This document shows, in pieces, positions 442 through 19,458 of a stretch of DNA of 20,441 nt. The notes beneath the pieces are model-generated. The model was given only the letters and a program-made list of their open reading frames with translations. It was not told the origin of the DNA and made no database searches. Source of the stretch: a virus; the IMG/VR virus record IMGVR_UViG_3300044609_001190, positions 1-20,441 of that record; one strand, given 5' to 3'. How positions within the stretch are numbered: the first letter of the stretch is position 1; every line of letters begins with the position of its first letter. Position numbers and translations under genes: made by a program.

Positions 442-937
442 AGGTTATTTTGAGCTGCTGCCTGAAATTCGCCTTAAGAAATATGGCAGTTGGCTTGTTG
501 CTGAATCCATTGAACAGGAAGAAATCAGCAAGCTGCAAAGCCAGGCTACCATTCGTGCCGTTCAACTTGCCAAGCGCATTGCTGCATCGCGTGAGATTCC
601 CCTCGACGAGGCTTTCGCGCTTCTGCAAGGCGGTGGTTCCATCACCGAAGCCGAACTGCTTTCTGAGTTCACCGAAGAGACTCTGAGCATGATTACAAGC
701 GGTTCGTCGGTGGAAGCTACCAATGCTCGCATGGTCACCGCTTTCATTCGTTCTCGCGGACAGGGTCTCATTGATGGTGAATGGCAAGATCTTGGTGATT
801 GGGAAATTGAAGACACCAAAAACCTGCCGCGCAAATCCATTGCGAAAGTAGTGGAATTCATTGCTGAAGAGCAGAATGCTGAGACCCAGGAGGCTGTAGA
901 AGCAAAAAAAGCGACGAAGAGGAATGGTCCTCAGTAG
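404..937 (+). CDS. Tail assembly chaperone, short (gpG-like) form
   Basis: A 177-residue soluble, helix-rich, acidic protein directly upstream of the tape measure gene, the standard position of lambda gpG-type tail assembly chaperones that coat the tape measure during tail assembly. I chose ATG 404 (MSKYSFLVQTKTEG); a TTG at 398 is in frame but weaker. There is no convincing Shine-Dalgarno, so initiation probably relies on coupling to the overlapping upstream gene. The N-terminal half is beta-like (SFLVQ, YFELLPEIRL). It is followed by a helical segment (about residues 45-75), a short helical block SITEAELLSEFTEET, and an acidic C-terminus ending in a Lys/Ala-rich tail. The frame terminates at TAG 935-937, 24 nt after an A7 heptamer at which a fraction of ribosomes is predicted to slip to make the longer form. 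The role is inferred from position plus the frameshift arrangement, not from a recognised sequence signature. Confidence 0.8.
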   Translation: MSKYSFLVQTKTEGYFELLPEIRLKKYGSWLVAESIEQEEISKLQSQATIRAVQLAKRIAASREIPLDEAFALLQGGGSITEAELLSEFTEETLSMITSGSSVEATNARMVTAFIRSRGQGLIDGEWQDLGDWEIEDTKNLPRKSIAKVVEFIAEEQNAETQEAVEAKKATKRNGPQ

Positions 938-1377
938 CAGAAAAGCTTGAAGCGCAAGCAAGGAAACAGCTTAAGAGCCTGACAGATTGGAACGAAATCT
1001 ATTTCAGGCTCTCAGCTTCTGACTTTAAAGACGAGCGATGGAGTGCCAATAATTTTGGCCTCCAGAAGCTTGATGACGTTAAGCGTGCGCTTAAATACTT
1101 AGACAGGCATGACGTTGCAAAATACAACGTGAGCAGTGTTGCCGTTGCCAAGCTTGGCACGATGGCAGCAGGAATGATGGCGGGCAAGAAGAGCAAGGTA
1201 AAGCCTGAAGATTTCTTGCCATTTGACACGAAGCAACTTAAGAAGGAAGATGGCGTGACAGACGCTAGCTTGATTGCGCTTCAGCGTTTGATGAAGACAA
1301 GAAGGATGGACGGAAGAGTGATTGCATTGCTTGCTGACGAGCTAAAGGCTTTTGCTGGGCGCAATCAGGAACAATGA
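404..1377 (+). CDS. Tail assembly chaperone, frameshifted long (gpGT-like) form, join(404..910,910..1377)
   Basis: Reading 404-910 in frame, then slipping back one base at the A7 run and continuing from 910, gives a 324-residue fusion: 169 residues of the short chaperone plus 155 from the -1 frame, ending at TGA 1375-1377. The -1 frame is open over this whole stretch. It begins SDEEEWSSVAEKLEAQA and carries a helical T-like domain (WNEIYFRLSASDFKD, KLDDVKRALKYLDRHDV) and a basic C-terminal segment KLGTMAAGMMAGKKSKVKP. No ATG with a ribosome site exists before residue 85 of the extension, so it is not plausibly an independent gene. In lambda and many long-tailed phages a minor G-T fusion made by -1 slippage is needed to recruit the tail tube protein to the tape measure. 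The slip site, its signals and the position just before the tape measure all match. Efficiency cannot be read from sequence. Confidence 0.85.
888..932 (+). promoter_or_regulatory. Programmed -1 ribosomal frameshift signal
   Basis: Three elements are present. A Shine-Dalgarno-like AGGAGG lies at 888-893. Ten nt further on is the heptamer A AAA AAA at 904-910, exactly in X XXY YYZ phase with the codons GCA AAA AAA. After an 8-nt spacer comes a hairpin with a GAGGA/TCCTC stem (919-923 with 928-932) and an ATGG loop. This is the same three-part layout as the well-studied E. coli dnaX signal. The zero-frame stop follows at 935-937. Confidence 0.85.
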
Positions 1378-1411: not shown

Positions 1412-4400
1412 ATGGCTCAAGACGCCGAATTGAAGCTGAAGGTAAGTCTTGACCTAGCATTTTTTAGGCAGCAATTAAGCACTGTTGGCGCTCAACTTGG
1501 CGGGCAGTCGCTACAGCTCAATATTCAGTTCAACAAGAAGAGCATTGTAGATCAATATCGCCTTCTCGATACTTACATTGGTCGTAAAACTTTTAAGGTA
1601 AAAATTGAAAGCAATACTCTTGATGTTCTCGTTGAAAAAGTAAGTACATTCAAGAAGAATCTCATTGCCTTAGGGAATGAAAAGATTAATTTGGCGGTCA
1701 ATGTAACAAGCAATGTCGACGAGACTCGGAAGAGCATCAAAGAAAAGCTTTCTTCTGTTGAAGTCAAAACACAACTTGCCGATCCCGTAAATGTTGATGA
1801 CTTCATTCGTGGCGTAGCGAAAAAAGTTGACGATCAGGTGAAGAAAAGCTATGCAGCGGGCGGCGTTCCCATTGCCACAAAGCTTGCATTGCCCGGCATT
1901 GCGGATTCGCTAAAAGCTTTGCAGAAAAATTTAAACCAAAAAGATCCACTGCGAGCAAAAGTCAGCACAACGCCGTCAATACTAAAAGCAGATGTAACCG
2001 CATTTAAAACTGCCGTCAGTGAAAAATTCAAGGACATCACCGTAAAGGTTAGAGCCGAACTTGACACCGCTACTACTGCTGCGCAAGGCGCTATTGCTGG
2101 ACCTTCTCGCACTTTCTTGCAAGAGCTGAAAGACTTAGATAAGAGCGCTCTTCAAAATATTTATGGGGCCGCTGGCAAAGATGCGTTACTGGCGTTTGAC
2201 GAAGGAATTATCAACAACAAAGCGAAAATGGTGCAAGCCTTAAGCAAGGCAGCAGAAGATGCAAGTGCTGGGTTTATTGCCGCGCTTGAAAATAAAAAGA
2301 GCGCTTTGTTTAAGGCTGCAGGCGAATACGGCGGTGCCTTGCTCAGCGGCTTGAAAAAAACCCTTAAGATACAATCTCCTTCGAGAGAGATGTTTGATAT
2401 TGGCGATGATGCGGGCAAAGGTTTTGAACTCGGCCTGCTGAAAGCAATGGAACTAGCGGAGAAATCTGCTACCAGTCAAATGCGGCGGATGTTAGACCGT
2501 CTCGCTCGAATGGCGCTCATGATGGGAGGCATGAGTGCGGCGGCAATTAACAAACAAGTTGCGCAATCAAGAGCCCTGCCCAGTGTTAATTTTCCAGCGA
2601 CTGTACCACCTAGTCAGAGCATTCCTATTGGACCATCTTCTACTGGCAGGACTCTTCCTGCTAGTCGTGCTGCCGCTGGATTGATTGGAGCTGCACAAGC
2701 TCCTGCAGGCTTACTGCCAAGCGCAACAAGACAGAGTGGACTCACTACTGGTCTTGAAGCCTTAATTCAATCACTCGTTTCCCAAAGTCGCGGGAGGGGG
2801 CCGGAAGGTCCTGGTTCCATTGTTTCCATGGAGACAGGATTTATTCCTGCGATGCGCAAACGCTTTGCAAAAGCTGCGGAACGCTATTTGTTTGGCGTTG
2901 AAACGCAAGTAATGGATTTGTTCGACGCTGCGTTGAGGCAAGTGGAATCTGCAGTTGATTTGCACATCGCAAAGATTCAAGGGCAGATTTCGCAAAGAAT
3001 GAGAAGCGCTTTTTCCGTAGTGGATCTTGGCGTGCAGGAACGACCAATGCTTCCTGGTGCCGCTACAGGACAAGAGCCTCTAATGCTGCCTTCTGCAGGC
3101 GGAACAACACCGCAAGGACAGATGCGTTTCAACGCAGTTCGCACTGGCGAAGTTATTCCTTCTACACCATTGATGCTTCCGCCCGCTGGCGGCACCACGC
3201 CTCGCAGGGAAATGCGTTTCAATGCAGTGACATCTACTGGTGGACGAGGCGGCGGTTATGTCCCTCCCGGCGGTTTCCCGGAAGAGGGCATGCTTGGCAT
3301 GCTTGGTGGGCGCCAAGGTCCAGCTACGTTTATTGGTGCTGGCAGTCAAATGGTGAAACTTAAAGCTAATTTAGATGCCACTGTTCAATCAGTAGAGCAG
3401 TTCCGCAAGTCTCAGATACCGCTAGCAGGTACCATGCAAGAGCTTGCCGGAGAATTTGGAAACGCGGCTCAGCAAGTATTGCTTTATGGAACGGCTTACA
3501 AAGCGCTTGCATTCTTTGTGGGCCTTCCTGGTCAGGCTTTGAATGCAGCAAAAAGCTTGCAAACATTTAACAACCAATTAAATGCAATCACTGGAAGCTC
3601 CGAGAATGCAGATCGGGCATTTGCTTTTGTTGATAATTTAGCTGCTCGTTTTAATGTGCCACTGGAAAGCGCTCGTCAGGGATTCGTAAAACTTTACGCT
3701 TCCATGGCTCCCGCTGGTTTTAGTAGCGGTGAAATTGAAAATCTATTCAGTGGAATTAGCAAAGCATCTGCAACTCTTGGACTCAGTTCTGATAAAGTTG
3801 ATCGCGTTACTTATGCCTTCTCTCAAATGGCCAGCAAAGGTCAATTGATGAGTGAAGAAGTTAGCGGCCAATTGGGCGACGTAATTCCAGGCGCGTTGTC
3901 AATCATGGCAGAAGCTGCTCGCATGGACATTGCCACGTTCAAGAAAGCGATGGAAGATGGCGTATTCGTTGGAGAAACTTTTAAGCAGGTAATGAGCAAT
4001 GTGCCTATTGTTTTGGAAAATCGTTTTGGGAAAGGAGCTGCTAACGCCGCGAAAACTCTTCAGGGTTCGATGAACGCTCTTGCCATTTCAACGCAAAAGT
4101 TTTATGAATCTTTTGAACCCATTATTTCTATGGGCGCAGCTTCAATTTTCCCCATCATTGCTGCTGCCATTAATGATGCAACGCAAGCAGTACAGGCATT
4201 TACTGCTGCTATGCAGGGCAATACTACTCCCGCTCAAATACTAGAAGGCAATGCTGCTCAAATTTATGGCGTATTGCAGCAATTAAGGGAAATCTTTGTA
4301 GCCGTCGCAGGAGTTATTCAAGGTATAGCTCCAACATTGATGATTGTCGGAAAAACATTTTTAACAACAGCGGAATACGTTGCAAAGCTTATTAATACAC

Positions 4401-7400
4401 CAATCGGAGGTTTCCTTGCTGATCTTGCTGTCAAAGCCGGCATTGCGCTAATCGCCGTTCAGTTGCTTACAAAAACTGGAATAGTTGGATTGATTTCGCA
4501 GTTAATTTTGCTTCAAAGAAGCACTGCGGCGGCAGGCGGAGGTCTTCTCACTTTTGCCGGGAATTTAACAAAAACAGCTACGGCTGCTAAGCTTTTCAGA
4601 CTTGCAATAACTGGACTAATTGGCGCTGGTATTTTGTTTGGAATCGAAGCTTTAGTCAATGCCATTGGCAGAATGGCTAATCGCCTGTCTGATGCAAGGA
4701 AAAATGCAATTGCTGCTCGCGATGCAATTAAGTCAATGACTGGAGCCGAACTCGGAGAGCAAATAATTGTTCAGCAAAACAAACTTCAAGCTTTAAGCAG
4801 AACTCAAAAAGCTGGAGGCAGGATAGGTTCCGAAAAAGATCGTCAAGCTTTAGAGCAAATGGGGATGAAGGTTTCGGCCACAGGCGGGACTTTTGTTGGA
4901 GGGCAGTTGATTGGCGGCAAGTATGCAGTTGACAAAAACTTGATTGAGTCTTTCCGAATTAGGGAGAAAGAGCAGCTAAAAGCAATTCAAGACCAAAGAA
5001 AATCGCTTTACGATACCACTCCTCTCCCGTTGAATGAGGTAGAGCTTGGCGCAGGGACAGGGGACGAAAAAGCAACCAAGAAAGCTCTCAATGACGCAGA
5101 GCAATTGGCGAAGCAAGAACAGCAGCGCCGCATTGAGCTTGCAAATTTTGCGAATGATATGCAAAAGATTGAATTTGACCGCGACGTACAGTTGAGTGAT
5201 GCAGCTTTTGAGCACAAGAAAAGTCTTATTGATACACTCAATGAATATGAGCTTTCTGGCCTCAATGATATACAGGCTCGCCAAGTTAAATTTGCCCAAG
5301 ACCTTAAGAAGATTCAATTGAATGCAGTTGATGCTGTCAGGAAGGCATTGCAAAAATCTCAAGAAGCGCAATTGAACGTAGTCACTGCGCAACGCACTGC
5401 ACAAGCTGCCGGAGGAGGAGGGGGTCCATCTGTGGCCGGATTCACTCCAGCCGAACTATCCACTGCGACAGCCGCAGCGAGCAGGTTTACAGGTATCGCC
5501 AATATGTGCTCGGAATCCGTAAAAGCTTTTTACAAGAGCTTGGGAATTTCGCTGCCCGGCGTGACGGCATGGGCAGATACGGTGCGCAATGCCGGTACAA
5601 CAATGAGGGATTGGTCCAAATTGGCGCCCGGCGACATTGTTGCCACTGGCAGGCCTGGGGACACTCCTCACGTTGGTGTTTATACTGGCGGACAAAATGT
5701 ATTCCACCAAAGCAGGAGCAGGGGATTGAAGGCTGGCAATTATCCAGACCTTGATTACTTTAAGCAGGGTGGATACTTTGTTCGTCCCAATGGCGGAATG
5801 AAGCAATCATCTGCTTCTTTCTCCATGGATACAAAGATGCAGAAAGAAAGCTTTGATCTGCAAAAACAGCTTGCTCAATCCACGAATCAGATTGCTTTGC
5901 AAAGTTTGGAAATCGAAAGAGCAATTCAACTAGCAAAAGAGCAAACAGCGGCAACAATTAAAGCAAATATTGACAACATTTTCCCTGTTGAGAAACAAAA
6001 GCTTGATCTTCAGTTGCAGCAAATGCGGAATAATTTAATTTTACAAGGCATGCCACAAGAGTATATTGACTACGAAGAACAGCGTGCATTGAAGACGGAA
6101 GAGGCGGCTGCAGCTTCGTCGAAGATGAAGGACGCGATTAACGAAGCAAAAGTAGAGCTAGGTAAATACAATACCGAGGCGGCTAAGGGAATAGATTTGG
6201 CGCCAGAACAAAAAGCTCGCATGAAGATCCTTGAGGATCAAATTGCAGCGAATGAAGAAGGGCTTAAAAAATTAACGGACGCCCAGCGACAATCAAACAT
6301 TGCTTCTCTTGAAAGTGCAATTGCGACGATGAAGCAAGCGGACGCTCTCAAGGCAATGGAAGAAGTGTCTGGGCGCATTGATGATGCCGTAGAAGGCGTC
6401 ACTGGCACTTACAAGAGCATGTTTAAAGAGATTGCCATGGGAGGAGATTCAGTAGAAGCACTGAAAAAAGCTCAGCAAGCGCTTGCTGATCAATTCCTAA
6501 CAATGGTCTTTGACATGGCAATGAAGCCAGTAGAGGAATCCATGAAGAACTCTCTCAGTAAAATGTTTGGCGTGCCCACTGAGAAAGAGAAGAGAGAGGA
6601 AAGCATCAAGAAGATGGAAGAGCAGCTTACGCAATTAAAGCTCATTGAAAACAATACGGCTATTGCCGCTGGTAAAGCGCCAGCATCTGGGACAGTTCCT
6701 ACGCCTGCTGCTCCCATCCCCGGTCAAACAACAGCGGCTGGGACTACTGGTGGATTCTTAACTGGCACCGCCGCGCTTCAAACCCTCCCCTTCAACGGTC
6801 AAACAAGCGGCATGCTTCAAACACTGCCTTTCAACGGTCAAACAAGCGGCATGCTTCAAACACTGCCTTTCAATGGAGAGGGCGGATTCTTGTCTTCTCT
6901 CGGAATTGATAGCGATGCACTGTCTACTTCAATAACAGACAGCGCCAATGCCTATTCTGAGCAGCTAAGCAAGGTGGACGCTTCAGTATTTGAAAGCGCA
7001 AATGCTCTTGGTACGGCCGGTACAGAATTAGGAAAAGAAGGAGCTGCTGGCAAGAAGTGGCACGAAAGTCTTGGGCAGGCAGTTGGCGGGCTCGGCATGG
7101 CTGCCGGTGCTGTCATGGGCATTGTGGCAGGCATCAATCAAATTAAAGAAGGCGGCACTTCCAACGTGCTAGGTGGTATCGGCATGATTGCTTCCATGGC
7201 TGGTAGTTTGCTTGGAAGCTTTGGAGGTCTGTTCGGCGGAGGCGGAGGAGCGAGCAGTATTGTTAAAGGCGTAGACATGCCAGTTTCTCAAATGCCGGCC
7301 GGCATGGCGTTTGCAAATGGTGGCATCGCTTTTGGTGGATTCCGTGCCTTTGCCAATGGCGGCACAGTAAGCGGCCCAACTCTGGGGCTCATCGGTGAAG

Positions 7401-7708
7401 GTAAGTACAACGAAGCCGTTGTACCGCTTCCTGACGGTCGTTCTATTCCCGTGCAGCTCGGCGGACGTTCCGCTCGCGACATGATGGGCGGCAATGCTCC
7501 AGGTATGCCTCAGGCACCTTCTCTCAGTATGAAGTTTGAAACCACTAAGATCAATGGCGTAGAATACGTTAGCCGCGAACAATTAGAGCAAGCAATGACA
7601 GAAACTCGTCGTGCTTCCATTGCAGGAGGCGCTCAACGAGGCATGTCAATGACTCTCGATAAGATTAAGCAAAGTCCCTCCACTCGCTCTAGCATTGGTA
7701 TTCGCTAA
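1412..7708 (+). CDS. Tail tape measure protein with embedded peptidoglycan peptidase domain
   Basis: At 2098 residues this is by far the longest gene next to the chaperones. Order of parts: helical and coiled-coil N-terminus (1-320); an SPSREMFDIGDDAGKG segment near 325, common in tape measures; Pro/Gly-rich linkers (390-460, 540-650); a classic tape measure domain about 715-900 (QLNAITGSS, FSQMASKGQLMSEEVSGQLG, KTLQGSMNALAIS); hydrophobic stretches about 1005-1090; coiled coil about 1210-1330; a cysteine-peptidase domain about 1345-1465 with Cys1366 (NMCSESV), His1420 (HVGVYTGG) and His1432 (FHQS), as in NlpC/P60 or CHAP enzymes; a second coiled coil to about 1650; hydrophobic Gly-rich segments about 1890-1950; and an ANGGTVSGPTLGLIGEG motif near 1981 typical of tape measure C-termini. 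It sets tail length and probably exits at infection, with the peptidase opening the cell wall. The ribosome site is weak. The stop overlaps the next ATG (TAATG). Confidence 0.95.
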   Translation: MAQDAELKLKVSLDLAFFRQQLSTVGAQLGGQSLQLNIQFNKKSIVDQYRLLDTYIGRKTFKVKIESNTLDVLVEKVSTFKKNLIALGNEKINLAVNVTSNVDETRKSIKEKLSSVEVKTQLADPVNVDDFIRGVAKKVDDQVKKSYAAGGVPIATKLALPGIADSLKALQKNLNQKDPLRAKVSTTPSILKADVTAFKTAVSEKFKDITVKVRAELDTATTAAQGAIAGPSRTFLQELKDLDKSALQNIYGAAGKDALLAFDEGIINNKAKMVQALSKAAEDASAGFIAALENKKSALFKAAGEYGGALLSGLKKTLKIQSPSREMFDIGDDAGKGFELGLLKAMELAEKSATSQMRRMLDRLARMALMMGGMSAAAINKQVAQSRALPSVNFPATVPPSQSIPIGPSSTGRTLPASRAAAGLIGAAQAPAGLLPSATRQSGLTTGLEALIQSLVSQSRGRGPEGPGSIVSMETGFIPAMRKRFAKAAERYLFGVETQVMDLFDAALRQVESAVDLHIAKIQGQISQRMRSAFSVVDLGVQERPMLPGAATGQEPLMLPSAGGTTPQGQMRFNAVRTGEVIPSTPLMLPPAGGTTPRREMRFNAVTSTGGRGGGYVPPGGFPEEGMLGMLGGRQGPATFIGAGSQMVKLKANLDATVQSVEQFRKSQIPLAGTMQELAGEFGNAAQQVLLYGTAYKALAFFVGLPGQALNAAKSLQTFNNQLNAITGSSENADRAFAFVDNLAARFNVPLESARQGFVKLYASMAPAGFSSGEIENLFSGISKASATLGLSSDKVDRVTYAFSQMASKGQLMSEEVSGQLGDVIPGALSIMAEAARMDIATFKKAMEDGVFVGETFKQVMSNVPIVLENRFGKGAANAAKTLQGSMNALAISTQKFYESFEPIISMGAASIFPIIAAAINDATQAVQAFTAAMQGNTTPAQILEGNAAQIYGVLQQLREIFVAVAGVIQGIAPTLMIVGKTFLTTAEYVAKLINTPIGGFLADLAVKAGIALIAVQLLTKTGIVGLISQLILLQRSTAAAGGGLLTFAGNLTKTATAAKLFRLAITGLIGAGILFGIEALVNAIGRMANRLSDARKNAIAARDAIKSMTGAELGEQIIVQQNKLQALSRTQKAGGRIGSEKDRQALEQMGMKVSATGGTFVGGQLIGGKYAVDKNLIESFRIREKEQLKAIQDQRKSLYDTTPLPLNEVELGAGTGDEKATKKALNDAEQLAKQEQQRRIELANFANDMQKIEFDRDVQLSDAAFEHKKSLIDTLNEYELSGLNDIQARQVKFAQDLKKIQLNAVDAVRKALQKSQEAQLNVVTAQRTAQAAGGGGGPSVAGFTPAELSTATAAASRFTGIANMCSESVKAFYKSLGISLPGVTAWADTVRNAGTTMRDWSKLAPGDIVATGRPGDTPHVGVYTGGQNVFHQSRSRGLKAGNYPDLDYFKQGGYFVRPNGGMKQSSASFSMDTKMQKESFDLQKQLAQSTNQIALQSLEIERAIQLAKEQTAATIKANIDNIFPVEKQKLDLQLQQMRNNLILQGMPQEYIDYEEQRALKTEEAAAASSKMKDAINEAKVELGKYNTEAAKGIDLAPEQKARMKILEDQIAANEEGLKKLTDAQRQSNIASLESAIATMKQADALKAMEEVSGRIDDAVEGVTGTYKSMFKEIAMGGDSVEALKKAQQALADQFLTMVFDMAMKPVEESMKNSLSKMFGVPTEKEKREESIKKMEEQLTQLKLIENNTAIAAGKAPASGTVPTPAAPIPGQTTAAGTTGGFLTGTAALQTLPFNGQTSGMLQTLPFNGQTSGMLQTLPFNGEGGFLSSLGIDSDALSTSITDSANAYSEQLSKVDASVFESANALGTAGTELGKEGAAGKKWHESLGQAVGGLGMAAGAVMGIVAGINQIKEGGTSNVLGGIGMIASMAGSLLGSFGGLFGGGGGASSIVKGVDMPVSQMPAGMAFANGGIAFGGFRAFANGGTVSGPTLGLIGEGKYNEAVVPLPDGRSIPVQLGGRSARDMMGGNAPGMPQAPSLSMKFETTKINGVEYVSREQLEQAMTETRRASIAGGAQRGMSMTLDKIKQSPSTRSSIGIR
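3077..3229 (+). repeat. Two 21-residue repeats in the tape measure linker
   Basis: Copies at 3077-3139 and 3167-3229, 90 nt apart start to start, each encode PLMLP-(S/P)-AGGTTP-xxx-MRFNAV. A shorter partial copy of the MLP part precedes them. The codons differ at several synonymous sites, so the duplication is not recent. The repeats fall in a Pro/Gly-rich linker ahead of the tape measure domain. Confidence 0.8.
6776..6873 (+). repeat. 39-nt tandem repeat (2.5 copies) in the tape measure gene
   Basis: The unit encodes LQTLPFNGQTSGM. Copy 1 is 6776-6814, copy 2 is 6815-6853, and a partial third copy is 6854-6873. Copies 2 and 3 are identical over their shared first 20 nt, and copy 1 differs by a few bases. 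This looks like a young in-frame expansion in a flexible linker after the coiled coil, at about residues 1789-1821. Confidence 0.9.
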
Positions 7709-12769: not shown

Positions 12770-13189
12770 ATGCCCTTTTACACTGGTCGTACTGGCAAAC
12801 TGCGTCTTGGTGGCAGCGAAGTATCAAAAGTTCGCAACTGGACGCTTGACACTTCAGTCAACATGCTTGACACCACAGCGCTGGGAGACGCTGCCAATAC
12901 TTTCACTCCTGGTCTGTTTAGCGCCACTGGCAGTGCTACATTGTCGTATTACAATGGCGACACCACTGATGTGACCAATCTTCTTGAGAAAATCACCAAA
13001 ACTGGTGCCGTCACTGAAAGTGACCGTGTAAATCTGACCTTTGAAGTGGGTACTAGCCAATCGTTCAATGCTGATGCCTACATCAACAGCGCCAGTATCA
13101 CTTCCTCTACTGACGAACTGACCACCGTTTCGTTTAACTTTACGGTTGATGGTCCCCTTGATGCAGTGGTTCTCACTGGTACCACCTGA
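12770..13189 (+). CDS. Major tail tube-like protein (139 aa)
   Basis: A 139-residue beta-rich protein with the overall character of lambda gpV/TP901-type tail tube proteins. It has a short N-terminus FYTGRTGKLRLGG, a first strand SKVRNWTLDTSVNMLDTT, and the conserved-looking loop ALGDAANTFTPGLFSATGSATLSYY. Next comes a helix-like segment with DVTNLLEKITKTG, and then paired strands (VNLTFEVG, FNADAYINSASITSS, LTTVSFNFTVDGPL). The pattern of a W/F-x-L-D-T strand, then a gap and a GSATLSYY strand, is typical for tube subunits. Tube proteins stack in hexameric rings around the tape measure. In most phages this gene lies before the chaperones; here it follows the J-like gene. It is the likely major tube protein unless another copy lies upstream of the window. 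It ends with tandem stops TGA TAG (13187-13192). No clear Shine-Dalgarno is visible. Confidence 0.75.
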   Translation: MPFYTGRTGKLRLGGSEVSKVRNWTLDTSVNMLDTTALGDAANTFTPGLFSATGSATLSYYNGDTTDVTNLLEKITKTGAVTESDRVNLTFEVGTSQSFNADAYINSASITSSTDELTTVSFNFTVDGPLDAVVLTGTT

Positions 13190-13250: not shown

Positions 13251-14261
13251 ATGACGTTTTTTGTTGGCCATACAGGCGCTATCAAGCTTCAGCGAGGAGG
13301 TGAAAACACTTTCACGACTATTGTTTCGCCTAGCGATATAAATACAGCGCTAAATCGCTTTAGCTTTGAAGGGAGCGATGACAACTTAATCACTGGCGAT
13401 CTTCTGGAAATTTCAACCGAAGATCCCAGAGGGCTTTTGTTCATGCCGGCTACGTTCTGGAGCATTCCAGGGCCAGACGTGGATGGCTATAGCGCAGTGG
13501 CATGGTCATCAGGAAGCACTGCCGCAATGTCGGGCTATTTAGATGATGATATTACGACCAGCAGCGACTTTCCCCCTGAAGGGTATGACGAATTTAGACT
13601 AAGCGACTATATTATTTCTGACAATATTAGAGCCTATGCCAATATAAACCGCGTAGGCGGCATTCGCTTGTTTGAAGACTTTGGCGATGCTATAAATAAT
13701 GAAAGAGCAAATGAATATAGTCTGGCTAAATTTTACGGCGAACCAATTGAAATTACAGTGGGGGTAAGGGATACAAGATATAACACACTTGGCTCTGTCA
13801 CATCGTTTGAGATTAACACTGACAGGGCCGCAATGGAAACAACAAGTCTGTCCGACCGATTTAAGCAGCAGTATTCTGCCGGCTTATTAAGTGGCAATGG
13901 CAGTATCGAATGTTTATTTAGTTATGAAACAGTAGCGGATCAGGACGTGCCGCTGTTCTTGTTACAAGTAATTAATCGCTTGGACGTGGGAAGTAGCTTT
14001 AAGGCATTACTCGCATTGTCCTCAGTGGAGCAATCGCCTACTTTTAGAGAGGAGGTTTATTACGACATAGAGGCGGTAGTGACGAGAGCAGGAGTAACTG
14101 TGACTTCTGATGCTTTGGTGGCTTGCTCTGTTGATTTCGTTACTACTGGCGAATTCAAGATTAGAGTGGGCGTTCCTCCAGAGTACATTTTGAAGGAAGA
14201 CAACGATGCCATTTACCTTGAGCAGGGCCTTGATTACTTGCTGAAAGAAATTGTTGATTGA
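13251..14261 (+). CDS. Tail tube-related protein with large internal insertion (336 aa)
   Basis: The first residues (FFVGHTGAIKLQRGG) match the start of the preceding tube-like protein (FYTGRTGKLRLGG). From about residue 183 the match resumes: SVTSFEINTDRAAMETTSLSD against SKVRNWTLDTSVNMLDTTALGD, then AGLLSGNGSIECLFSY against PGLFSATGSATLSYY. The end, DIEAVVTRAGVTVTSDALVA then VDFVTTGEF, matches DAYINSASITSSTDELTTVS then FTVDGPL. Between lie about 165 extra residues containing NLITGDLLEISTEDPRGLLF and AYANINRVGGIRLFEDFGDA, a strand-rich module of unknown role. About 40 residues after the tube fold (VPPEYILKEDNDAIYLEQGL) extend the C-terminus. It may form a minor ring of the tail tube, a terminator-like cap, or a decorated tube subunit. 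The paralogy is directly visible; the role is inferred. Confidence 0.7.
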   Translation: MTFFVGHTGAIKLQRGGENTFTTIVSPSDINTALNRFSFEGSDDNLITGDLLEISTEDPRGLLFMPATFWSIPGPDVDGYSAVAWSSGSTAAMSGYLDDDITTSSDFPPEGYDEFRLSDYIISDNIRAYANINRVGGIRLFEDFGDAINNERANEYSLAKFYGEPIEITVGVRDTRYNTLGSVTSFEINTDRAAMETTSLSDRFKQQYSAGLLSGNGSIECLFSYETVADQDVPLFLLQVINRLDVGSSFKALLALSSVEQSPTFREEVYYDIEAVVTRAGVTVTSDALVACSVDFVTTGEFKIRVGVPPEYILKEDNDAIYLEQGLDYLLKEIVD

Positions 14262-14337: not shown

Positions 14338-17300
14338 ATGGCCGATCAAAGAATTACGGAACTCGTTGAACTTCCTCAGGGAGGCGTAGCTTCCAATGAC
14401 GTGCTGCCCATTGCAGACGTTACTGCCAGTCAAACCAAAAAGGTGCAAGTGAAGAGCCTGATTCAGGCAGGCTTTAACATTGCCGATGCTTCAACGCTTG
14501 ATATTTCCAAGATCAATCAAGGCAGCGCTGCAAAATTTACCGGCGTTTCCATTGCCACCAATACGCTTACATACGACAAAATCCAGCAAGTAAGTGCCAA
14601 CAAGCTCCTTGGACGCAGTGCGTCTACTGGCAATGTAGAAGAAATTGATTGTACTGTTTATATTCGCACGCTTCTTGACGATGCGGATGCTGCCGCTGCT
14701 CGCTCTACGCTTGAGCTTGGCATTGTTGCCACTGGCAACACCGTCAACACTTCTCTTCTTGAAGACTTAAGTGTTACCACTGGCAAGGTAAACAATCTTG
14801 CTATTACTGCTGGCAAGCTTGCCGCTGATGCAGTGGAAACGGCCAAAATCCTTAATGGTGCCGTCACTTCCGCCAAAATTCAAACTAGTGGCATCACCGG
14901 GGTCAATGTAAGCGCTGACGCCATTGATACTATTCATATTGCTGCTAGCGGCATTACGTTGGCAAAAATGGCTTCCAATTCAGTTGGAACCATTCAGATT
15001 GTCGACAGTGGCGTCACCCAGGCGAAGCTGGCAAGCAATGCAGTTGCCACCATCAATATTGTTGATAGCGGCATCACTCAAAATAAGCTTGCTGCAAATA
15101 GCGTAAATACTATCAATCTTGTTGACAGCGGCGTTACGCAGGCAAAGCTAGCAAGCGATGCCGTTGCAACAATCAATATCGTTGACGATGCTATTACCAT
15201 TGCCAAAATGGCCGACGGCAGTGTTAGTACTGCTCAGTTAGTCGATAGCGGCATCACTCAACCAAAACTAGCGAGTGGGGCAGTCGCAACAATCAACCTT
15301 CTTGACAGCAGTGTCACGCTCGCCAAAATGGCAAGCAATAGCATTGGCACTTCTCAGCTTGTTGATAGTGGCGTCACACAAGCAAAGCTAGCTGCAAACT
15401 CAGTGGCCACGATTAACGTGGTCGACAGTGGCATTACGCAATCCAAGCTTGCATCTGGAAGCGTTGCGACTGTCAATATCATTGATAACGGCGTCACTCA
15501 AAGCAAGCTTGCGTCAGGCGCTATTGGCACTGTAAATATCATTGATTCCGCTATTACTTTGGCAAAGATGGCCAATAATAGTGTTGGCACTTCTCAGCTT
15601 GTTGATAGTGGAGTTACACAGGTAAAACTAGCGAGCGATGCTGTTAATACAGTCAATATCCTTGATAGTGCAGTTACGCTTTCCAAGCTTGCAGTAAATA
15701 GCGTAGACACCACAAAGATTATTGACAGTGGCGTCACCCAAGCCAAACTTGCTGCTAATGCAGTGGCAACAGTCAACATTGTCAACAGCGGAATCACCCA
15801 AGCGAAACTTGCTGCCGATGCAGTTGCGACTATTAATTTGGTTGATGGCGGCGTCACTTTTGCAAAGCTTGCAGCCGATAGCGTCAACACAATCAATTTG
15901 GTTAATAGTGGCGTCACTCAAGCCAAGCTTGCAGCGAATGCAGTGACAACTGCAAATATCGTTAACAGCGGCATCACTCAATCAAAACTCTCCAGTGGCG
16001 CTGTTGATACTGTTAATCTTGTTGACGCTGCCGTAACGCTTGCCAAGATGGCGAGTAACAGTGTTGGGACGAGCCAACTAGTCAATAGCGGAGTCACCCA
16101 AGAAAAGCTGTCCAGCGGATCCGTTGCCACAATCAACATCATTGACTCGGCTGTAACGCTTGCCAAGATGGCAAATGCAAGCGTTGATACTGCTCAACTT
16201 GTAACCAGCGGCGTTACGCAAGCAAAACTTGCGAACGATGCAGTTGCCACCGTAAATATTATAAATGACGCCGTAACTCTTGCCAAAATGGCAAGCGGAA
16301 GTGTCAATACTGCACAGCTCGTTGACAACGGAATTACCACTGCGAAGATTGCATCTGGTGCTGTCACCATTAGCAAGCTAAGTCTTTCTTCTGGAGAACT
16401 TTCCGGCGCTGTCATTACTGCCAGCTCCATTCCCTCTGGAAGCTATGCAAGTGGATCCATTCCCACTGCTGCCATTGCAGACAATGCAGTTACGTTTGCC
16501 AAGATCCAGCAAGTAGCAAGTGGCGTGCTTCTTGGTCGCGCTTCCGCTGGTAGCGGCAACGTGGAAAGCATCACGCTCACTGAAGCTGGTAGGGCGCTCC
16601 TGGACGATGCCGATGCTGCTGCTCAGCGCACAACGCTTGGCATTGGTACCATGGCAGTGCAGGCAGCTTCTGGCGTGGCGATCACTGGCGGCACAGCCGT
16701 GCTCAGTAGTGGCACCATTTCTTATGCAACCATCAATGGAGGTGTCATCAGCGGCATCACTGATCTCGCAGTTGCAGATGGCGGCACAGGCGCCTCTACT
16801 GCTTCTGGCGCTCGCACCAATCTTGGCTTGGCTATTGGCACTGACGTGCAGGCTTATGACGCTGCACTGGCTTCAATTGCAGGGCTTACCACTGCGTCTG
16901 GTCAGCTCATTTATACCACTGCTTCTGACACCTACGCGACTACTGCAATTACTGCGGCTGGTCGTGCCATTCTTGATGATGCAGATGCAAGCGCTCAGCG
17001 TACAACGCTTGGCCTTGGTTCGCTAGCCGTAAAAAACACAGTTGGAAGTGGTGACTATGATTCCTCTTCCATTGTCACTGCCAATATTGCCGACAGTGCA
17101 ATCACCACCGCAAAGCTTGTTGATAGTGGCGTTACTGCTGTCAAGATTGTTGACGCAAACGTTACGGCAGCCAAGCTTGCGAGTGATTCAGTTACTACTG
17201 TCAAGATTGTTGACAGCAACGTTACAACTGCCAAAATTGCTAATGCAGCAGTTTCTTATGCAAAAATTCAGGCTACAAGCTCAAGCGATGTCATCCTTGG

Positions 17301-19458
17301 TCGTTTTTCTGCAAGTGGTGGCACGGTAGAGGAGATTGCTTGTACTTCCGCAGCTCGCTCCATTCTTGATGACGCCAGCGTTGCTGACATTCGCACGACG
17401 CTTGGCCTTGGCACGCTTGCCACACAAAATGGAAGCTTTTCTGGCACTTCCACTGGCACTAATACTGGCGATCAAACCATCACTCTTTCGGGGGACATCA
17501 CGGGCACTGGCACTGCTGGATTTGCTACCACCATTGCCAATGATGCCGTCACAACTGTCAAGATCCTCAATAGTGCAATTACCACGGCAAAAATTGTTGA
17601 CAGCGGCGTAACTGCTGCAAAGCTGTCCGACAATTCTGCTGCTGTTGTTGCTGGCTCCACTCCCACGGGCGATGGCGATTTTATTGGTCAGCAATGGCTC
17701 AATACAAATACTGGTGTTGAATACACTTGGACGGGAAGTGCTTGGCGGAGGCAAAGTGGGCTCGCTACTACTGTCATTTCGGGCGACACTGTTTACACTT
17801 ATGCCACATCTTACCCTGATGAATTTAGTGCTTCCATTGTTCCTTCGTTAAATACGCAAGTAGCAACACGCTTCTTTGCTGGCCCGGCAAGTGGCAATAC
17901 TGACGCTGCTCCTACTTTCCGTGCTATTACTACCGACGATCTTCCCAAGGCGACCACTGCTGCCCTGGGCGTGGCTCAAGCTGGTACAGGCTTGGTCACT
18001 GTTAGCGGCATTTTTAATCACGCAAATAGCGTGGCTTCTGGCACTTATTACAAAGTAATAGTAGATGAGCAGGGGCACGTTAGCGCTGGCGAAGCTTCTC
18101 TCGTTGCTGATGATATTCCTTCTCTTCCTGCAAGCAAAATTACCACTGGTACATTTGGTAGCGGCTTCATTGCAGACGAGGCAATTCTTGCTTCTAAGCT
18201 TGCTAACTATTCAGTGAGCCAATTTGGTGAAGCTCCGCCAGTTGCAGATTTTATTGGGCAATTCTTCTTCAATCCATTGGAGAAAGATCTCTATCTATGG
18301 GATGGTAACGTTTGGAACCCAGTTGGTATTAGTGTTGGCGAAATTATTTTTGGCGGCACTTACAATGCAAGCGGCAATACTATTGCAAGTGTTAGTGCTG
18401 ATGGAGCTGCCATTGGCCTTTCTTTAGGGCAGCCACTTCCTGCAGCATCAACCACATTTAATCGCTATTACGTTGTTGTGGCGAGTGGTGGAACGGGAAC
18501 ATCGCCTGCTCCTGAAACTGTCTTGCAGCCGCCCGACATTTTGCTTTGCAATGGTACGGCATGGGTGGAGCTTGACGTTAGTTCCACCTATCTGTCGCAA
18601 ACTGCTTCTAACGTTGCATTTGCTCCCGCTGGTACTATCGGCAGCACCAATGTGCAATCCGCCATTGAAGAAGTTAATGCTGAATGCCGCAATATCAATA
18701 ACGTGGCAAGTGGCATTTTGACCACTGGTTATGGCGGTACGGGCTTTAATACCTACACGAAAGGCGACATTCTTGTTGCCAGTGGAACAACGCTTGTTAG
18801 GCAAGCAGTTGGGACCAATGGACAAGTGCTCACTGCTAATTCAGCATTTGGAGGTGGCGTGCATTGGACTACGCCTACTGTTGGCACTGTCACTTCAGTA
18901 AGCGTCAACTCTCCGTTAACTGTCGTCAGTGGAAGCACTACTCCCGTTGTTTCTATTCCCGATGCATCGACAAGCGTAAGGGGAAGCGTCCAGCTCACTG
19001 ATAGCACGAGCACTACCAGCTCCTCTCTTGCCGCTACTGCCACTGCAGTCAAGAGCGCTTTTGACCTTGCCAATGCTGCCCTTCCGAGGGCGGGTGGCAC
19101 CATTACTGGCGAAGTGGTCATCGGAAGCGCTGGTACGCTGTTGTTTGAAGGCGCCACTGATAACGCTTTTGAAATTCAACTTACTGCTGCTGATGCCACT
19201 TCCGATAAAGTGGTTACGCTGCCAGATACTACTGGCACCATCATCACCACTGGCGACACTGGCACTGTCACTAATACGATGCTTGCTGGCAGCATTGCTG
19301 ATACCAAGCTCGATACTATTTCTACTGCTGGAAAAGTTAGCAATAGTGCCACTACTGCAACTAGCGCCAATACGGCAAATGCAATCATCGCTCGTGATGG
19401 CAGTGGCAACTTCTCCGCTGGTACTATTGATGCCACCATTGATGAAGGCACTTTCTGA
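14338..19458 (+). CDS. Long tail fibre protein with 20-residue repeat shaft (1706 aa)
   Basis: The N-terminus RITELVELPQGG then DVLPIADVTASQTKK has the form of virion-anchoring domains in many phage fibres. A module YDKIQ, LLGR, GNVEEI, LLDDADAAAARSTLEL (79-134) recurs at about 720-775, 871-900 (partial) and 974-1031. Residues 202-681 are 24 perfect-length 20-residue repeats of the VDSGVTQAKLASNAVATINI type, a beta-structured shaft expected in a trimeric fibre. Shorter runs of the same decapeptide follow at about 915-970. Further on are W-x-G-x-x-W hairpin motifs (YTWTGSAW near 1129, LYLWDGNVW near 1318), GGTGFNTYTKGDILVASG near 1466, RAGGTITGEV near 1584, and a C-terminal LPDTTGTIITTGD segment shared with the next gene. 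There is no cysteine-rich, enzymatic or S74 chaperone domain. It probably carries host binding or holds the next fibre. The start has only a weak GAGAG. Confidence 0.9.
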   Translation: MADQRITELVELPQGGVASNDVLPIADVTASQTKKVQVKSLIQAGFNIADASTLDISKINQGSAAKFTGVSIATNTLTYDKIQQVSANKLLGRSASTGNVEEIDCTVYIRTLLDDADAAAARSTLELGIVATGNTVNTSLLEDLSVTTGKVNNLAITAGKLAADAVETAKILNGAVTSAKIQTSGITGVNVSADAIDTIHIAASGITLAKMASNSVGTIQIVDSGVTQAKLASNAVATINIVDSGITQNKLAANSVNTINLVDSGVTQAKLASDAVATINIVDDAITIAKMADGSVSTAQLVDSGITQPKLASGAVATINLLDSSVTLAKMASNSIGTSQLVDSGVTQAKLAANSVATINVVDSGITQSKLASGSVATVNIIDNGVTQSKLASGAIGTVNIIDSAITLAKMANNSVGTSQLVDSGVTQVKLASDAVNTVNILDSAVTLSKLAVNSVDTTKIIDSGVTQAKLAANAVATVNIVNSGITQAKLAADAVATINLVDGGVTFAKLAADSVNTINLVNSGVTQAKLAANAVTTANIVNSGITQSKLSSGAVDTVNLVDAAVTLAKMASNSVGTSQLVNSGVTQEKLSSGSVATINIIDSAVTLAKMANASVDTAQLVTSGVTQAKLANDAVATVNIINDAVTLAKMASGSVNTAQLVDNGITTAKIASGAVTISKLSLSSGELSGAVITASSIPSGSYASGSIPTAAIADNAVTFAKIQQVASGVLLGRASAGSGNVESITLTEAGRALLDDADAAAQRTTLGIGTMAVQAASGVAITGGTAVLSSGTISYATINGGVISGITDLAVADGGTGASTASGARTNLGLAIGTDVQAYDAALASIAGLTTASGQLIYTTASDTYATTAITAAGRAILDDADASAQRTTLGLGSLAVKNTVGSGDYDSSSIVTANIADSAITTAKLVDSGVTAVKIVDANVTAAKLASDSVTTVKIVDSNVTTAKIANAAVSYAKIQATSSSDVILGRFSASGGTVEEIACTSAARSILDDASVADIRTTLGLGTLATQNGSFSGTSTGTNTGDQTITLSGDITGTGTAGFATTIANDAVTTVKILNSAITTAKIVDSGVTAAKLSDNSAAVVAGSTPTGDGDFIGQQWLNTNTGVEYTWTGSAWRRQSGLATTVISGDTVYTYATSYPDEFSASIVPSLNTQVATRFFAGPASGNTDAAPTFRAITTDDLPKATTAALGVAQAGTGLVTVSGIFNHANSVASGTYYKVIVDEQGHVSAGEASLVADDIPSLPASKITTGTFGSGFIADEAILASKLANYSVSQFGEAPPVADFIGQFFFNPLEKDLYLWDGNVWNPVGISVGEIIFGGTYNASGNTIASVSADGAAIGLSLGQPLPAASTTFNRYYVVVASGGTGTSPAPETVLQPPDILLCNGTAWVELDVSSTYLSQTASNVAFAPAGTIGSTNVQSAIEEVNAECRNINNVASGILTTGYGGTGFNTYTKGDILVASGTTLVRQAVGTNGQVLTANSAFGGGVHWTTPTVGTVTSVSVNSPLTVVSGSTTPVVSIPDASTSVRGSVQLTDSTSTTSSSLAATATAVKSAFDLANAALPRAGGTITGEVVIGSAGTLLFEGATDNAFEIQLTAADATSDKVVTLPDTTGTIITTGDTGTVTNTMLAGSIADTKLDTISTAGKVSNSATTATSANTANAIIARDGSGNFSAGTIDATIDEGTF
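14572..17430 (+). repeat. Four dispersed copies of the LLGR/LLDDADA fibre module
   Basis: Copies lie at about 14572-14739, 16495-16662, 16948-17037 (C-terminal half only) and 17257-17430. The shared pattern is (Y/F)xKIQ, then LLGR, then a G-x-V-E-(E/S)-I strand, then R-x-(L/I)-LDDADA-x-A-x-R-(T/S)-TL-x-LG. They bracket the repeat shaft, with copy 1 before it and copy 2 just after. The copies are diverged at DNA level. Confidence 0.85.
14941..16380 (+). repeat. 24 x 60-nt in-phase protein repeat (fibre shaft)
   Basis: Twenty-four consecutive units of exactly 60 nt with no insertion or deletion, each encoding two decapeptides (consensus (V/I)DSG(V/I)TQAKL plus ASxAVATINI). Less regular units extend upstream to about 14761. 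The amino acid pattern is strong while codons differ freely among units. It is protein-coding throughout, not a CRISPR array: there are no variable spacers. Confidence 0.95.

Follow-up and report, generated by a model that had tools for sequence, protein, structure and literature searches.

A conserved and unusually complete set of candidate -1 frameshift signals in predicted tail assembly chaperone genes of phages related to Synechococcus phage S-CBS4

Results

An open frame with no start of its own precedes the tape measure gene

How is a reading frame of 155 codons expressed when no usable start codon lies near its beginning? This question is raised by a locus in the IMG/VR record IMGVR_UViG_3300044609_001190, of which we analysed a stretch of 20,441 bases, here called the window. 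Two overlapping frames, G and T, lie immediately upstream of a tape measure gene, and the locus contains the following features.

178 to 441, + strand: small upstream ORF, a conserved neighbour, with 54% identity to the gp031 region of S-CBS4
404 to 937, + strand: G, the 0-frame product, predicted to be a gpG-like tail assembly chaperone (ORF, homologues, gene order)
888 to 893, + strand: internal Shine-Dalgarno (SD) element AGGAGG (sequence, codon conservation)
904 to 910, + strand: slippery heptamer A_AAA_AAA (phase checked; in-phase heptamer in 157/157 distinct homologues)
911 to 918, + strand: 8-nt spacer, variable in sequence
919 to 932, + strand: hairpin GAGGA-ATGG-TCCTC, 3' of the slip site (predicted MFE structure, stem conservation)
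935 to 937, + strand: 0-frame stop TAG, invariant in the window clade and displaced in other clades
910 to 1377, + strand: T-like domain in the -1 frame, 155 aa, SDEEEWSSVAEK... (open frame, homologues, dN/dS)
1412 to 7708, + strand: tape measure protein, the expected chaperone client (PF20155 TMP_3, phrog_2335, S-CBS4 identity)

G begins MSKYSFLVQ... at ATG 404 and is 177 aa long; the ORF can be extended to TTG 398, a less likely start. Near its end the 0-frame codons read GCA AAA AAA GCG, so the phase of the heptamer is exactly A_AAA_AAA, the X_XXY_YYZ arrangement required for simultaneous slippage. AGGAGG lies 10 nt upstream of the heptamer, the stem GAGGA (919-923)/TCCTC (928-932) with its ATGG loop starts 8 nt downstream, and TAG 935-937 ends the short product 8 codons past the slip. 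The original prediction, made from the letters alone, had named the heptamer with its phase, the upstream element and the hairpin with these distances, and a base check confirmed each. It had also described the -1 frame as open for 155 codons with no usable start. This frame is indeed bounded by TGA at 880 upstream and TGA 1375-1377 downstream, leaving 155 codons after the slip, and no conventional start occurs in it before GTG 1129, which is internal and has no SD.

The gene order (G overlapping T, then the tape measure gene at 1412) is the same in S-CBS4, and the ORF at 178-441, a homologue of S-CBS4 gp031, overlaps the start of G. The tape measure protein matches PF20155 TMP_3 (E 5.8e-26) and phrog_2335 (E 1.8e-56) and is 54% identical over 367 aa to that of S-CBS4.

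Other features of the tail region were seen in passing. The tape measure protein contains an NlpC/P60 peptidase domain (PF00877, 9.6e-6; window 5507-5737, residues 1366-1442), and its gene has an in-frame 39-bp tandem repeat at 6775-6873 (LQTLPFNGQTSGM). Two proteins match major-tail-protein PHROGs, one encoded at 12770-13189 (phrog_10528/1407, 5e-9) and one, weakly, at 13251-14261 (0.04); both come after the gene for a central fibre J-like protein and not before G, which is unusual for tail-tube-like proteins. The ORF at 14338-19458 encodes a tail-fibre-like protein of 1706 aa, made largely of roughly 20-aa repeats (..ASNSVGTSQLVDSGVTQAKL..), with 60-bp tandem repeats in the DNA.

The -1 relation and an in-phase heptamer are found in every homologue

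We collected near and far homologues from IMG/VR with G and T as queries, and added S-CBS4. Both G and T were present at 442 loci, corresponding to 157 distinct regions, which are related in sequence and so are not 157 independent observations. T lies in the -1 frame relative to G in all of them (157/157 regions, all 442 loci), and the overlap always contains an in-phase X_XXY_YYZ heptamer (157/157). This is A_AAA_AAA in most regions, A_AAA_AAG in some and G_GGA_AAA alone in six. In L424, L426, L428 and L448 (IMG/VR), G_GGA_AAA replaces A_AAA_AAA, a swap of slippery sequence within one protein family.

Among the findings that, according to the original prediction, would count against it were homologues with an intact -1 frame and no slippery heptamer, and homologues with a start codon and ribosome site for the downstream frame. 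Neither turned up among the 157 distinct regions: wherever the -1 frame is intact an in-phase heptamer is present, and the T frame is free of ATG, GTG and TTG as far as codon +10 past the slip. In alignments of T, conservation starts directly past the heptamer, far before GTG 1129. We therefore give hardly any credence to a separate start for T, whether internal or non-canonical, for which AGGAGG would serve to bind ribosomes and termination-reinitiation might be the route. The element does precede the 0-frame stop, an SD ahead of a stop codon can support coupling (PMC5009743), and S-CBS4 is annotated with an internally started separate ORF, gp033. However, this explanation has to do without a start codon in 157 sequences and with conservation that begins well ahead of GTG 1129, and it leaves the conservation of the heptamer unexplained. 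These sequences give very good support to the view that a G-T fusion, of about 325 aa, would be the sole product containing the T domain.

Both frames are under purifying selection; for the -1 (T) frame, dN/dS is 0.016-0.09 in the window clade. Homopolymer runs are prone to error, and an indel introduced by sequencing or assembly, or a decayed split gene, could in principle produce such an arrangement. The comparison refutes this: 442 loci, drawn from many metagenomes, share the -1 arrangement with the sequenced isolate S-CBS4, and selection acts on G and T alike.

The composition of the heptamers bears on a further possibility, in which RNA polymerase would stutter along the A's and some mRNAs with one additional A (or two fewer) would join the frames with no shift by the ribosome. 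The window has a run of seven A's, two loci have eight, and poly-A slippage yields the short dnaX product in Thermus (PMC5009743, PMC3711429). However, the run is down to six A's (AAAAAAG) in 18 loci and to four in the G_GGA_AAA subgroup, below the usual rule of at least 8 (PMC3711429). Sites of transcriptional slippage would have a homopolymer of about 8 or more and no strict phase, and this is not what we found: the strict X_XXY_YYZ phase in 157/157 regions and the conserved SD are instead expected of ribosomal slippage. Transcriptional slippage is thus a very improbable source of the fusion, and we favour programmed -1 ribosomal frameshifting.

A scan of genome contigs found one locus. L456 (2940-3005), on a contig binned as a Rhodobiaceae MAG, has a T domain with GAGGAGGG close upstream of AAAAAAG; the contig probably comes from a phage, either binned wrongly or infecting another host.

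The internal Shine-Dalgarno element is constrained

The window clade comprises 67 sequences. Across these, synonymous variation is zero at the SD codons (CAG GAG) and at GCA AAA, the codons with which the slip site begins, compared with a mean of 0.43 at 76 other G codons, none of which falls below 0.03. The codons beside the SD vary freely, and GGAGG is retained even where codon -7 is CTG or CGG. Because this stretch is coded in one frame only, dual coding cannot account for its conservation.

Stimulatory SD elements for -1 shifts are spaced 9-14 nt from the slip site (PMC5009743); that of the window lies within this range, and its GGAGG is invariant in the window clade. Across the wider family, 152 of 157 regions have an SD-like element at a spacing that is stimulatory in experiments, by a rule taken from PMC4066793, and five lack one. 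GGAGG is spaced at 10 nt in 72 of the 157, at 13 nt in 14 and at 16 nt in 21.

A 30-gene stretch of S-CBS4 has an SD-like element in range at only 7 starts, and the main gene starts of the window mostly have none. With so few gene starts having such an element, the conserved internal AGGAGG is probably not background, and recoding appears to be what anti-SD pairing serves at this site. In the window alone, a GGAGG 9-14 nt upstream would occur by chance at 0.7% of positions and a perfect 5-bp stem 4-10 nt downstream at 2.4%, and A7 runs occur just twice in 20 kb. The conservation tests are much stronger evidence than these single-sequence odds.

A short hairpin follows the slip site

The predicted hairpin, 8 nt past the heptamer and thus in the 4-10 nt range, is short and weak (-5.1 kcal/mol; z -1.3 alone and -2.4 for the 30-nt region). 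In the window clade, heterozygosity is 0.024 and 0.008 in the two stem arms, 0.286 in the loop and 0.143 in the spacer. This contrast favours the hairpin, and a conserved 0-frame KRN(S/G)P tail could contribute to it. The whole hairpin is dual-coded, and in such DNA every substitution, or nearly every one, changes an amino acid in one frame or both. Dual coding confounds the conservation of the hairpin.

The S-CBS4 and L311 clades have hairpins of their own at this position, with mean folding energy z of -3.3 and -3.2. In these two clades, the hairpins of which differ in sequence, the local minimum of RNA stability falls 3-9 nt past the heptamer. The slip-site minimum of the window clade (z -2.0) is not the strongest in the ORF, so its stability profile is not a main argument. 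The strongest predicted local structure of the G-T region in this clade lies inside T at offset +129 from the heptamer (about window 1040-1069; mean MFE -14.5 per 30 nt, z -5.1). Covariation in the S-CBS4-clade hairpin was compensatory in 1 of 8 pairs, not clearly above shuffles, and a scan for promoters and terminators stayed at chance level. We also considered whether AAAAAAG is coupled to a weakened stem as compensation, as in L101, L102 and L103, and rejected this as anecdotal, since other AAAAAAG members keep the stem.

The frameshift could be real and the SD, the hairpin or both be passive by-products of coding, the former from QEA codons and the latter from the dual-coded KRN(S/G)P tail. 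The hairpin is after all entirely dual-coded, and distant clades have other SD spacings and stems or, in five regions, no SD-like element. However, the SD is singly coded and shows no synonymous change in 67 sequences while adjacent codons vary, the loop and spacer are also dual-coded yet vary, and other clades carry other stems at the same place. We consider passive stimulators unlikely. The original prediction had proposed alignment of homologous phages as a check: within the window clade the heptamer, SD and stem are kept, and in the wider family SD spacing (7-16 nt) and stems differ and a few members have no SD. Since the SD and hairpin vary in this way, the heptamer and frame form the core of the signal, with stimulators tuned by clade.

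S-CBS4 and the protein families of G and T

S-CBS4 (HQ698895) is the best or only good cultured relative for G, T, the tape measure protein and the upstream ORF, at 61%, 54%, 54% and 54% identity, respectively. Its gp032 and gp033 are homologous to G and T, stand in the -1 relation with an A7 heptamer and are followed by the tape measure gene; its SD-like GGAGG is at 16 nt, and its hairpin is different. The two are annotated as separate hypothetical proteins. Because gp033 is annotated from an internal start, the 5' part of T, about 200 nt (HQ698895.1 20324-20528), is left unannotated. We suggest a single gene model for gp032 and gp033, with a -1 shift at the A7 run linking them. In this group of phages, as the original prediction had anticipated in saying that simple gene calling would miss about 465 nt of coding sequence in the window, callers split or miss the second frame.

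Homologues of G in S-CBS4 and IMG/VR are 60-99% identical, and those of T 45-99%. G has no significant Pfam or PHROG match. For T, PF06223 Phage_tail_T, the Pfam family matched by most members, gave sub-threshold matches in 11 of 21 (best E 0.008), with the window T scoring 15.5 bits against a cut-off of 25.9 bits, and phrog_337 'tail protein' gave weak matches in 14 of 21. Comparison by hhalign with small alignments of lambda T and G was not significant for either protein, and a search of solved-structure profiles returned nothing useful. NCBIfam matches were scattered and discarded as chance. AlphaFold models of G and T had pLDDT of 48-49, from alignments that predate the diverse homologues, and were too poor for use.

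Discussion

We propose that two tail assembly chaperones of the G/GT type are made from a single start codon at this locus by programmed -1 ribosomal frameshifting, a reading to which we assign a probability of about 0.93 from the sequence and its homologues. Most ribosomes would read 404-937 and produce the 177-aa G. When a ribosome is at A_AAA_AAA, the 3' end of its 16S rRNA would pair with AGGAGG 10 nt upstream, and this pairing, together with the hairpin 8 nt downstream, would hold it at the heptamer. In a minority of cases the two lysyl-tRNAs would re-pair one base back, and the -1 frame would then be read to 1377, yielding the fusion. By analogy with lambda, the tape measure protein would be coated by G, and the fusion would recruit the major tail protein through its T domain. 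We infer the slippage, its efficiency, the stimulation by SD and hairpin and the chaperone role. The efficiency could be low, as E. coli ribosomes shift far less readily on A_AAA_AAA than on A_AAA_AAG (PMC5009743).

The recoding proposed here is of a well-known kind, well supported in this instance, and the mechanism is not new; the set of helper signals is unusually conserved and complete. The finding provides a predicted function and a correct fused gene model for an unannotated protein family, carried by frequent and mostly uncultured phages related to S-CBS4. More than 150 homologous signals with varying heptamers, SD spacings and hairpins offer a natural series on how stimulators are traded off for a fixed chaperone ratio. 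One tentative possibility is that this lineage uses a dnaX-type signal in which heptamers (A_AAA_AAA, A_AAA_AAG, G_GGA_AAA), SD spacings (7, 10, 13 or 16 nt, or no GGAGG) and hairpins are exchanged between clades while one G:GT ratio is held; as its own genes mostly start without SDs, anti-SD pairing may be selected more for recoding than for initiation.

Comparison with known systems

Heptamers of the A_AAA_AAG type with an SD and a hairpin are known from IS3/IS911-type elements, which differ in encoding transposases, unrelated to tail genes, and in usually having larger structures. SDs are estimated to occur in 56% of IS elements (PMC5009743). Of 13 IS/prophage clusters, Sharma et al. 2014 found 3 with a conserved SD, and 9 of 69 clusters had both stimulators (PMC4066793), so an SD and a hairpin together are not unprecedented. 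In the literature we searched, which was thin in subscription journals, we found no description of an SD-stimulated tail chaperone frameshift in a cyanophage.

The E. coli dnaX signal shares the A-rich heptamer, an upstream SD in the 9-14 nt range, there also at 10 nt, and a downstream hairpin. The dnaX hairpin has 11 bp (PMC5009743), compared with 5 bp in the window, and dnaX is a different gene with a different purpose. Its shift, at about 50%, makes a shorter product, whereas that proposed here makes a longer one, so 'dnaX-style', as the original prediction had it, fits the signal parts and not the logic of the products.

The closest likeness is to lambda gpG/gpGT, a programmed -1 frameshift (Levin et al. 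1993; Xu, Hendrix and Duda 2004, 2013, as cited in PMC5009743). In both, two overlapping ORFs lie immediately 5' of the tape measure gene, the slip occurs or would occur near the end of the first, and the second domain, in the -1 frame, forms a C-terminal extension. The lambda heptamer is G_GGA_AAG, compared with A_AAA_AA[A/G] in the window family, and the lambda proteins were not significantly related to the window G and T in the tests we made. Lambda, N15, phi80, mEp237, PhiR55_1 and LLS have GGGAAAG or GGAAAAG slip sites, and none of these six lambda-type comparators has a GGAGG 9-14 nt upstream. The original prediction had called the set of signals here fuller than that of many chaperone frameshifts, and in these six no stimulator set of the dnaX/IS kind was seen. 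The G/GT-type reading of the original prediction is supported by the homologue survey as well, and in gene order and architecture this locus agrees with the lambda G/GT type.
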